Shown piece by piece: positions 16,217 to 21,287 of a DNA stretch of 64,000 nt. Each line of letters begins with the position of its first letter. Position 1 is the first letter of the stretch. A program made the position numbers and the translations under genes. The stretch is from Trichocoleus sp. FACHB-46 (GTDB lineage Bacteria; Cyanobacteriota; Cyanobacteriia; FACHB-46), in assembly GCF_014695385.1 (NCBI RefSeq), contig NZ_JACJOD010000008.1:124001-188000 (forward strand), read 5' to 3'. The notes beneath the pieces are model-generated. The model did no database searches. It was not told where the DNA came from and saw nothing but the letters and a program-made list of their open reading frames with translations.

Positions 16217-18205
16217 TTAACCTTCGTCGCGGAGAGCCTCTAGGACGTTGCGATCTTCCAAAGTGGAAGTATCTCCGGACACGGCATTGCCACTGGCGAG
16301 ATCTCGCAGCAATCGGCGCATAATTTTGCCCGATCGCGTCTTGGGGAGGGCATCGGCAAATCGAATATCTCCGGGACGGGCGATCGCGCCGATTTCTTGG
16401 CCCACGTGTTGCTTTAGTTCTGCTTTCAGAGCATCACTGCCCGTGTGTCCCCCTTCTAGGGTGACGAAAGCCACAATGTCTTGCCCTTTGAGTTCATCGG
16501 GTTTGCCGACCACCGCAGCCTCAGCTACGGCAGGGTGCGAGACCAACGCCGACTCAATTTCCATCGTGCCTAGACGGTGCCCTGCTACGTTGATCACATC
16601 ATCCACACGACCCATCACCCAGTAGTAGCCATCTTCATCGCGTCGGGCGCCATCGCCTGCAAAGTAGATATATTTGCCATCTTTGGGTGGAATGTGCTCC
16701 CAGTAGGTTTTGCGGAAGCGATCGGGATCGCCATACACCGTTCGCATCATTCCGGGCCAAGGATGCCGTACGGCCAAGTAGCCGCCTTGGTTGGTGCCGA
16801 CGGATTCTCCTTCTAGATTCACCACATCAGCCAAGATGCCAGGGAAAGGCAGGGTCGCTGAGCCTGGTTTGGTGGCGATCGCACCCGGTAGAGGCGTAAT
16901 CATAATGCCCCCAGTTTCGGTTTGCCACCAAGTATCCACAATCGGGCAGCGCTCACCACCAATCACACGGTGGTACCACATCCAAGCTTCAGGGTTGATG
17001 GGTTCGCCTACGGTACCTAACAAGCGTAGAGAGGAGAGATCTCGCGCTTTCGGTATGTCTTCGCCCATTTTGATAAAGGCGCGAATGGCCGTAGGTGCGG
17101 TGTAAAAAACATTGACCCCATGCTTTTGAATCACATCCCAGAAGCAGCCAGGATTCGAGGCGCGGGGTGCCCCTTCGTACATTAGTGTGGTCGCACCGTT
17201 GGAAAGTGGGCCGTAGACAATATAGCTGTGTCCCGTAATCCAACCTACATCAGCGGTACACCAATACACATCTGTGTCTTGCAGATCAAAGATCCACTTG
17301 GTTGTCATGTGGGTGTAGAGGTTGTAGCCACCTGTGGTGTGCACCACGCCTTTGGGTTTGCCTGTACTACCTGAGGTGTAGAGGACAAACAGCAAATCTT
17401 CGCTATCCATCGGTTCAGCAGGACAATCCGCCGACATCTGCGGCTGCAACTCGTGCCACCAATGATCCCGACCGCCGAGTTGCATGGGGATCTCTTGTCC
17501 CGTCCGCCGTACCACCAGCACATTCTCGACACTAGGAGCCGCACCATCGGCTAAAGCTTTATCCACTTGGGTTTTCAGCGGCACGATCGCGTCTTTGCGC
17601 CAGCCACCATCGGCTGTGACCACGACCTTGACTTGACCATCGACCAAGCGATCGCGCAACGCCTCAGCACTAAAGCCGCCAAACACGACCGTATGCGCTG
17701 CCCCAATCCGCGCACAAGCTAGCATCGCGATCGCAGCTTCCGGGATCATCGGCATGTAGATGCCCACACGATCGCCCTTCTCCACACCCAAATGCTTCAA
17801 GGCATTAGCAAACTGGCACACCTCACGATGCAGTTGGGCATAGGTGAGCGTCCGCGAATCTCCCGGTTCTCCTTCCCAAATCAAAGCCGCTTTGTTGCGT
17901 CGCCAGGTGGTCAAGTGGCGATCGAGGCAGTTGTAAGAGATGTTGATCTTACCACCGACAAACCACTTGGCAAAGGGTGGCTGCCAATCCAGCACTTGAT
18001 CCCACTTCTGAAACCAGTGCAACTCTTGTTCGGCTAGCTCGGCCCAAAACTTTTCTGGGTCAGCCTTGGCGCGATCGTAGAGTTGCTGGTAGTCTTCCAG
18101 ACTCTTGATCTGAGCTTTTTGAGAGAACTCAGCCGCAGGCTGAAATAAGCGCTTTTCTTGAAGAATGGATTCAATCGTGGATTCTGACATAGCTCTTTCT
18201 ATCAC
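16217..18205 (-). CDS. acsA: acetyl-coenzyme A synthetase
   Basis: AMP-forming ligase that activates acetate with ATP and CoA to acetyl-CoA (662 residues, normal). Visible are the core nucleotide motif [18 protein letters not shown] near residue 275, the [10 protein letters not shown] adenine-binding motif near residue 425, the hinge [20 protein letters not shown] near residue 530, and the C-terminal [14 protein letters not shown] with the catalytic, acetylation-sensitive lysine near residue 620. The GTG at 18205 has an AGGAG eight bases upstream; the ATG at 18190 gives the more typical N-terminus ([17 protein letters not shown]) and is an alternative. No deacetylase or acetyltransferase is adjacent. 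Confidence 0.95.
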
Positions 18206-18301: not shown

Positions 18302-18904
18302 CTAAGTGTCCCGAATGGCTGGAGCCGTCGCTAAGCGAGTGGCGCTTTGCTGCATCCGTTTAATTTCTTCTGCAGACCACTGATGGGGCGCTTGGCAATG
18401 ATGCGCGATCAGCAAGCCCCACAAGCCTTTACTGGTAAGGACAGGCACAACAAGATTGGCCCGCACCTGGAGACTCCGCAGAAAATCCCGGTGGCACTCT
18501 TGAATGGGTTCTGTCTCGATGTCGGCGATCGCTCGAACCCGTCCATCTAAGTACAAAGCTGCATACTCGTCGTTGAAGCAATCATCAGCGCCAGTTGATC
18601 CCAAAATCGACAACTGCTCAGCGCTCAAGGACTCGAAGGTAACTTGGCCTTTCCATCGTTGATAAAAGTAGTACAAGACCACGCGATCAGCTTGGAGCAT
18701 CTGTTTCAGCTCATCGGTCGTTTTTTGGACCAAGGTATCTCTTTCTAGACTTTGGGCTAGACGTTTGGCAACGCGGCTCAATCCTCTGTCCTGCTGGTCT
18801 AAGGAGTGAGAATTCAGTTCATCAAAATTACTACGCACAGGTTGAGGAGGGGTACGAAGTTCAATAAGTTGGTAGCGATCAGCCAGTGCACTGCGCTGAT
18901 TCAA
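18302..18904 (-). CDS. stand-alone DXCF-type cyanobacteriochrome GAF protein
   Basis: A 200-residue protein that is essentially one GAF domain (about residues 42-195) after a short N-terminal extension. It carries the full bilin-binding signature of cyanobacteriochromes. The DXCF motif is DDCF (107-110, Cys109). The canonical chromophore cysteine is in ECHRDFL (Cys137-His138), followed by LQVRANLVVPVL and LWGLLIAHHC. Known DXCF proteins attach phycocyanobilin or phycoviolobilin and sense blue/green light. Here no kinase, cyclase or chemotaxis output domain is attached, and the stop codon directly follows the GAF fold. The start is a TTG at 18904 with only AGG next to it; there is no ATG in frame, so a degraded 5' end of a longer photoreceptor gene is possible. 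Confidence 0.8.
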   Translation of the reverse strand: MNQRSALADRYQLIELRTPPQPVRSNFDELNSHSLDQQDRGLSRVAKRLAQSLERDTLVQKTTDELKQMLQADRVVLYYFYQRWKGQVTFESLSAEQLSILGSTGADDCFNDEYAALYLDGRVRAIADIETEPIQECHRDFLRSLQVRANLVVPVLTSKGLWGLLIAHHCQAPHQWSAEEIKRMQQSATRLATAPAIRDT

Positions 18905-19004: not shown

Positions 19005-19036
19005 ACAAAAATCCCCCTCACCGAAGTCAGGGGGAG
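19005..19036 (-). terminator. rho-independent terminator of the homospermidine gene
   Basis: On the minus strand CCCCCTGAC pairs with GTGAGGGGG around a TTCG tetraloop closed by C-G, with one mismatch, then ATTTTTG. It lies about 40 bases after the stop codon. A second small hairpin (GAGTGAA/TTCACTC) at about 19044-19061 precedes it. Confidence 0.8.
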
Positions 19037-19072
19037 CTAATTTGAGTGAAGACGTTCACTCAGAAGTGACGT

Positions 19073-20278
19073 TTATTTGCGAATCGGAGTGCCGCAGGGA
19101 TAAGTTGCCACAGGTTCGCGCTTGGCTGCTTCGCTCTTGATAGTCTCAGCCACAGCCACCAGCGATCGCTCTGTTGCCGATTCCGCTTTTGCTGCCAAGT
19201 AGTCAGCCTTCAGTTTCGCCAGCATTTCTTCCCGGCGATCGTAGAGCCGCTTCAGGGAACGAGGCGCACATTGGTTGATCACATAAGCGGTCATGATGGG
19301 TAGCGCGATCGTGCTGTCGGTGTAGCAAACAATCGTGCTAGGCAGTTCATCCGGGTCAACCTTGCCCCAACTCACAGCTTCGCTAGGAGTAGCCCCGGAA
19401 AGACCACCTGTATCTGGGCGAGCATCAGTGACTTGGATAAAGTAGTCGTGACCTCGTTCCTCTAGCCCCAATACTTCATGCAGTTGGGGTTGCGTTTGCA
19501 ATAGGAAGTTCTTAGGACTGCCACCGCCGATGATTAGCGCGGCACTCTTACCTTCTTCACCAGCGACACCAGACTCGCGCGCTGCATAGGCGATCGCTGC
19601 GGTTTCATTCACATCCAAGGAAGGATCAATCACCAACTCAGAGCCTTCTAGCGCCAAAGCAGCTACGTTCATGCCAATCGAGCTGTCTCCGGGAGAAGAG
19701 GTATAGATGGGAACGCCGCACTCATAGGCTGTTGCCAACAGGCAAGAATTCTGCACACCGAGTTGCTTCTCTACTTCTCGGACATACTTGCCGAGCAAAT
19801 GGTGAAATTCCGCCGTACCCATCCGCTTCTGGAACGGTTCCGCCCGCAAAATCTCGCGAATGAAGGCGTCGGTTTCCAGTAGCACATCGTAGTGGAACAC
19901 AATATCGTAGATTCGGATGCGGCCTTCTTGACGTAGTTTCACGTCATCCAAAAAGGGATTGCTGGAATAGAGGCTCAACCCCAAACCATAGTGCATGTCA
20001 TGGTAGAGATTAGCGCCCGTGCTGATCATCCAGTCAATAAAGCCATTCCGAATTAGGGGAGCTAGGACTGAAACTCCAAAGCCCGCCGGAGTCATCGCGC
20101 CAGACAAACTCACCCCAACAGTCACGCCCTCCTGCATCACTTCTTGGCTCAGTAAGTGACAAATCTCGCGCAGGCGAGCGGAGTTGTAAGCTGTGAAATA
20201 GCCGTCGATTAAATCAACGACGCTGATTTCAGCAGGCATGGGGGCGGGTGCGATTTTGTGGCTGAGCAATTTCGACAT
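19073..20278 (-). CDS. deoxyhypusine-synthase-like homospermidine biosynthesis protein
   Basis: A 401-residue enzyme of the deoxyhypusine synthase fold. Bacterial members of this group are generally homospermidine synthases using spermidine and/or putrescine with NAD, since bacteria lack the eIF5A target. Visible are the NAD-site segments [15 protein letters not shown] near residue 60, [15 protein letters not shown] near residue 205 and [12 protein letters not shown] near residue 255, whose lysine matches the catalytic lysine of the family. The [28 protein letters not shown] segment follows. The ATG at 20278 is chosen because GGAG lies seven bases ahead and the upstream 36 codons are an unrelated hydrophobic run. 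Cyanobacterial homologues are often called speY or homospermidine biosynthesis protein. Confidence 0.85.
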
Positions 20279-21287
20279 TTGTACGCTCCAAAAAGAACAA
20301 AAAGCATAAAGAAGAGGAGAAATGGACACGCAGCTACCTAATGCGATCGCGATTGACAAACGAGCTAGGAAGCCCAGTTCAATCAACTCAAACGCTACTA
20401 GGTTTTCTTATCTGCAACCTTGAAAGAAACTTTCAAAGTCATGTGATCCGATTGGTCAACGAAGTTGGCAACGCTTAGGTGAGTAGGTACCCAAGCAGCC
20501 AAGAGATTCGATTCTGTCGTTCTGTCCAGTAGTGGCAGAACTCCACAGACTCAAAACTTATGTTTGCTGCATCAACTAAACCTAGGCACAGAATTCCCTA
20601 GGCCAGATGAAAAAGGACATCGTACAGGTCAATATCCCTTGACTAAAAGCTCTGATAAATCTGAAAAACATCAGAACCATTAATCCAGCTATTTAATTCA
20701 AAAAAGACTCCACCTAAGGAGCGCGATCGACCCAGTTCGCCACTATTTCTAGAGATAGGGTTGCTTATCCTCTGACTCAGCAAGAGTATCTACTAGCAAT
20801 CGCGAACCTGGTAGTTACAGGCCGATCAGCTCATACTGGGTGCTTCACAACGGTCAGCCCAAGACAGTGCGGGATCGCACTGCCGTTTCCGTTTCAATTT
20901 CATTTCCAGGTACCAAAGTGGTCTCCACGGGTACCCGACCAAGGAAAGGAGTTTCAAGGCTTTATACGCGACCTCAAACACCAACTGCTACAGTTTAACA
21001 CCCACGTCTGAAATCAGCTCAATAAAACTACGGAAACTGCTGGGATTCTCCAAGCAAACCTCCTCAAAGTAAGGGTTCTTACGGCTTTCTCTATCGCTTG
21101 GGTGAGTATGCCGCGCCTAAGGGCATTCCTTTGCAGTTTTTCGTCTTAAGCATTACAATATCTGCTCCGTTTTAGTCAACCTATGTAGGCGAAGAAACAA
21201 GATAAACTGGAGACAACGCCATAAAAAACTTCATCAAAAAGCTAATACGGCATATTTAACTGCTCAGCCTGTTTCTGAGGTCATGCC
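20279..21287. other. 1-kb region without a recognisable gene
   Basis: No open frame of useful length has protein-like composition. Two short open stretches were noted. On the minus strand, 20854-20961 reads as a Thr/Glu-rich piece ending VRSRTVLG before a TGA. On the plus strand, about 21033-21176 contains GSYGFLYRLGEYAAPKGIPLQ before a TAG. Either may be a gene relic or chance. No transposase motif, tRNA or cobalamin riboswitch box was found, although cobO lies nearby. Confidence 0.45.

Follow-up and report, generated by a model that had tools for sequence, protein, structure and literature searches.

The window analysed here, a 64,000-nucleotide stretch of DNA from Trichocoleus sp. FACHB-46, carries on its minus strand a gene for a protein with one GAF domain, both bilin cysteines and no output domain, which belongs to a discrete, single-copy stand-alone family occurring across cyanobacteria. 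The protein is probably a complete and conserved output-less single-domain cyanobacteriochrome of the DXCF type, signalling in trans through a putative partner, with predicted bilin binding and colour. In support of this explanation we count the exclusively short orthologues, their occurrence as single copies, their grouping in one clade, the invariant cysteines and histidine, purifying selection, a conserved non-ATG start, the fold of the model, and the matches to PcyA and heme oxygenase in the same genome. Against it stand the lack of a shared neighbour cluster, the weak part of the model at residues 65–84 and the replacement of the motif aspartate in some family members.

Gene, domain content and start codon

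The first-pass annotation had described a 200-residue protein starting at TTG and had given no strand. Its coordinates are indeed those of a 200-codon open reading frame with TTG as the first codon (18302–18904), which lies on the minus strand; TTG, however, was not upheld as the start (see below). A Pfam GAF match (E 7.2e-20) spans residues 55–194 in the numbering from TTG, and a domain search of the 210-codon open frame returned no second domain, and thus none of the output domains of multi-domain photoreceptor kinases, cyclases or MCPs. In a search of solved structures, the top matches were cyanobacteriochrome GAFs or proteins derived from them (6oap, 7.4e-32; miRFP670nano, 5e-28; 3vv4, 2.4e-24). 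Together with the Pfam match, these hits identify the phytochrome-type GAF domain by which cyanobacteriochromes are recognised.

The canonical bilin cysteine followed by a histidine is present as Cys137–His138 from TTG (Cys115–His116 from GTG; codons at 18491..18496, minus strand), and the DXCF motif as DDCF at residues 107–110, with the second cysteine, Cys109 from TTG or Cys87 from GTG, encoded at 18578..18580 on the same strand. Both sites, as well as the LQVRANLVVP strand, located at residues 145–154 (TTG numbering), had been read correctly in the annotation. Membership in the extended red/green (XRG) group was rejected, as Gly105 rather than Trp stands two positions before the motif aspartate in 67/67 stand-alone proteins; the test motif, WXDXXL, was taken from the accessible text of PMC11284453, and its register, with Trp two before the motif Asp, was deduced. 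The same genome holds one match to a PcyA-type reductase (PF05996) and one to heme oxygenase (PF01126).

The 5′ region was compared with that of relatives, where the annotation had suggested looking for an ATG or for lost domains; the flanks hold no sister domain, and an aligned ATG occurs in only 2 of 48 rows. A GTG at 18838–18836 (residue 23 in TTG numbering) instead aligns with a GTG in 38 of 47 further rows of the family, so that the column, with the window included, holds 39 GTG, 2 ATG, 1 GTT, 3 other codons and 3 gaps. GTG makes up 39 of the 40 valine codons in this column, compared with 120 of 521 (23%) in the conserved core, and it is the sole ATG, GTG or TTG ahead of the core in 26 of 48 rows. 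In 22 chosen relatives, differences within the 14 codons 5′ of the GTG are not concentrated at the third position (529/550/295 over the three codon positions, against 3307/1825/8278 in the core). The 17 codons directly after the GTG likewise lack a third-position signature (186/143/61), so the N-terminal tail would seem to be weakly constrained or badly aligned, and the start assignment therefore rests on the start-codon column.

Since that column is conserved, the true start is probably the GTG 22 codons downstream of the TTG, which would give a protein of about 178 residues with its bilin cysteines at positions 87 and 115; TTG was rejected as the start. The probable coding sequence accordingly runs over 18302..18838 on the minus strand (178 aa, GTG start, TAG stop), based on the Pfam GAF match, the conserved GTG column and the short open frames throughout the family. 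The 22 codons from TTG to GTG (18839..18904, minus strand) are probably an untranslated leader, to judge from the codon-position differences and the start-codon column. The weak TTG, which had been taken as a hint of a broken gene, is thus explained by the conserved GTG downstream. The retention of a non-ATG start over such deep divergence may mean that the protein is deliberately kept at a low level.

An AlphaFold2 model built from 24 family members (mean pLDDT 77.1, pTM 0.71) is predicted to fold as a cyanobacteriochrome GAF domain, although pLDDT falls below 50 at residues 65–84 of the 178-aa form, beside the DXCF cysteine. It matched cyanobacteriochrome structures in Foldseek with an E-value of 1.5e-12 (3vv4 being named TePixJ by Foldseek), and superposed on miRFP670nano with Z 18.4 and an rmsd of 2.0 over 138 residues, on TePixJ 4glq with Z 17.7 and an rmsd of 2.1 over 140 residues, and on 3vv4_A with Z 16.8. 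The model also shows a long N-terminal helix (residues 8–48).

Distribution and descent of the stand-alone family

Scanning the species collection with a pattern yielded 18 relatives that are 59–68% identical. Of 386 cyanobacterial genomes sampled, 57 gave a match at E <= 1e-45; these represent 32 of the 143 genera and belong to 15 family codes. All 57 orthologues lie in short open frames of 165–213 aa, with one close homologue per genome among the at most 8 candidates scored in each, a limit past which additional stand-alone copies could escape; seven of them (G203, G336, G195, G155, G149, G039, G099) are known from match-table rows alone. In the genomes reached via the loci of named records, with all candidates scored, exactly one copy was present in 8/8. 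Relaxing the limit to 1e-36 left this set of 57 unchanged, its last row standing at E 9.3e-50; the 84 rows that come next begin at 1.2e-41, and each sits in an open frame of 359–2216 aa. Within the genome of the window itself, 40 other GAF matches were detected, every one in an open frame of 655–1865 aa, and the best-scoring is 40% identical over the aligned stretch.

These numerous larger GAF proteins (each with an open frame of at least 655 aa) suggest another way in which the protein could act, namely by joining one of the cell's multi-domain cyanobacteriochromes or kinases as a sensory subunit at its GAF or helical dimer interface, and modulating it as a heteromer rather than addressing a separate effector. 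GAF domains pair through elements such as long helices, and the N-terminal helix of the model would suit such a role. We nevertheless consider heteromeric modulation unlikely, as the genomes that carry single-domain relatives differ widely in their candidate numbers (4 to 77, at a first look).

In the phylogenetic tree, 67 stand-alone proteins were split by one branch (SH-aLRT 100, stem 0.75 changes per column) from 39 multi-domain cyanobacteriochrome GAF domains, a set picked as the best remaining matches and not at random, and made up of 16 domains from the same genome, 20 next-best matches elsewhere and 3 solved structures. Left out of the tree were L029, which is the same protein as L009, and 13 of the 29 own-genome paralogue loci (L024 duplicates, weak or partial GAFs). 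Cys109, Phe110, Cys137 and His138 are invariant in 67/67 stand-alone proteins, while Leu49, Leu58, Tyr79, Tyr81, Thr104, Gly105 and Phe141 are near-fixed in the clade but seldom seen among the multi-domain GAFs. A small, soluble single domain that has invariant bilin cysteines and no effector could also be pictured as a bilin binder without any signalling role, keeping free bilin bound, quenched or buffered, or protecting the cell. This is improbable, since the photoswitch cysteine, which would be dispensable for merely holding a bilin, is conserved without exception just like the canonical one, and one copy per genome together with a conserved GTG start would fit low expression better than storage.

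The remaining alternative, raised in the first-pass annotation, is that a frameshift or deletion broke up a larger gene for a multi-domain cyanobacteriochrome and left this gene as the remnant. The absence of a fused output domain and the TTG as first codon might speak for it, but it is effectively ruled out by orthologues that are equally short in all 57 genomes, with no longer one at such similarity, by their descent as one clade, by purifying selection in close pairs (dN/dS 0.07–0.32 in 11/11 pairs tested), by the conserved GTG start and by flanks without a sister domain. A check of the homologues for a frameshifted part of a longer gene, which the annotation had named as a refutation of its reading, found no such case, and no intact longer orthologue or flanking remnant, among the 57 orthologue-bearing genomes.

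The motif aspartate is the more variable element of the family. It is present in the protein of the window (Asp107) and in 57/67 stand-alone proteins in all, and its replacement in the other 10 implies that colour may differ within the family. A small clade (L034, L039, L032, L038, L046, L052, L040) has this residue replaced, mostly by serine (Ser in 6/67 rows, Arg in 1). It keeps both cysteines, and its photochemistry may differ.

Gene neighbourhood and transcription

The gene is flanked on the minus strand by an acetate--CoA ligase gene (acsA) downstream (16217..18205; NCBIfam TIGR02188) and by a gene for a homospermidine biosynthesis protein of the deoxyhypusine synthase family upstream (19073..20386; NCBIfam NF001980, Pfam PF01916). 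The first-pass annotation had named both correctly and had seen no partner in them, which agrees with our finding that neither is common to any of the 38 other loci. Between the homospermidine gene and the GAF gene lies a terminator-like hairpin with a T run (19008..19040, minus strand; −17.2 kcal/mol, z −3.31, with 0 of 200 shuffles folding as well), which is absent from the list of the consensus scan. Its position after the homospermidine gene suggests that the GAF gene is a separate transcription unit, possibly with a transcript read on into acsA, which begins 96 bases downstream. A sigma-70 scan gave 1 promoter-like site against 0.7 expected, located downstream of the gene.

A conserved neighbour that could serve as partner was sought, with gene names from NCBIfam and Pfam, in 39 loci with long flanks (the window and 38 others); no cluster spans more than 10 loci, and the largest ones contain no gene of the window. 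ndhH was found near the stand-alone gene in 11 of 48 loci, 29 of which have flanks of 1.5 kb or less, and in Nostocaceae-type genomes the stand-alone gene often follows ndhH. In 3 of 39 loci (L100–L102), all of one family code, petH lies upstream and an OmpR-type regulator downstream. We treat both neighbourhoods as leads only. In L100, L101 and L102 all genes are on one strand, petH being a CpcD-linked ferredoxin-NADP reductase and the regulator an OmpR-family response regulator, and no kinase is among the next genes named there. On the contig of the window, about 1.2 kb past its right end (188000), a 1129-aa open frame (G000:C8:189206-191530) has several GAF matches, including one of DXCF type (ADECF).

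Predicted photochemistry and proposed signalling in trans

The protein shares its GAF fold, the canonical Cys–His and the second cysteine in D-X-C-F with the DXCF cyanobacteriochromes TePixJ (3vv4, 4glq) and Tlr0924. These, however, are parts of larger proteins, whereas the protein of the window has no output domain, and the stand-alone clade differs from them in a signature of its own that includes Tyr79, Tyr81 and Gly105. By sequence, the best solved-structure matches are GAFs of the red/green type, those underlying miRFP670nano (6mgh) and the dual-sensor kinase 6oap. At the position of the DXCF cysteine the matches listed have Tyr and not Cys, and these GAFs belong to a different clade. Rockwell and colleagues, writing on the DXCF subfamily in 2012, reportedly surveyed the DXCF proteins of N. 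punctiforme.

DXCF proteins are defined, in the accessible text of PMC11284453, by isomerisation of PCB to PVB and by a reversible bond to C10 of the bilin, and their photochemistry is also treated in the accessible text of PMC5578081. By this definition, the protein would bind phycocyanobilin via Cys115 (178-aa numbering) and probably isomerise it towards phycoviolobilin, while a further bond, formed and broken between Cys87 and the bilin, would shift the dark state to the blue, as in proteins of the blue/green kind.

As there is neither a fused effector nor a conserved gene partner nearby, we infer that light changes which partner protein is bound in trans, as with PixD and PixE; stand-alone action by protein contact is the best inference available. 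Signalling by light-dependent protein contact has precedents in PixD–PixE (accessible text of PMC5812497) and in NfPixJ–NfSrr1 (accessible text of PMC12157317). PixD, a stand-alone BLUF photoreceptor, likewise lacks a fused output and would work alike if the trans mechanism holds, but it has a BLUF fold and a flavin in place of a GAF domain and a predicted bilin, and the two are not homologous. A further-reaching possibility, which we put forward tentatively and rate as less likely than not, is that the family represents a widespread and ancient class of diffusible cyanobacteriochromes that serve solely for light-dependent docking, with one DXCF sensor per cell and a conserved non-ATG start. 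The putative effector into which it would dock may have ties to cyclic electron flow, with ndhH or petH as the gene immediately upstream in two lineages, or to an orphan OmpR-type regulator, which comes after the gene in one lineage.

The photochemistry is of a known kind; what is unusual is an output-less, single-copy and conserved clade. The signalling of cyanobacteriochromes is read almost entirely from what is fused behind the GAF domain, be it a kinase, a cyclase or an MCP domain. Cyanobacteriochromes often occur in large multi-domain proteins (accessible text of PMC5812497). In the open-access literature we found no description of an output-less stand-alone DXCF family, although an earlier mention is possible, as most subscription papers lie outside that literature. 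Single-GAF cyanobacteriochromes are noted in the introduction of PMC6696110, citing two reviews, where the term, in the accessible text, may mean either proteins that lack any output domain or proteins in which a single GAF is joined to one. As a natural dual-Cys photoswitch of 178 residues, the protein would be of interest for optogenetics, where it could serve as a docking module; the conservation of the family without an output domain would mean that some cyanobacteriochromes signal by binding alone, like PixD.
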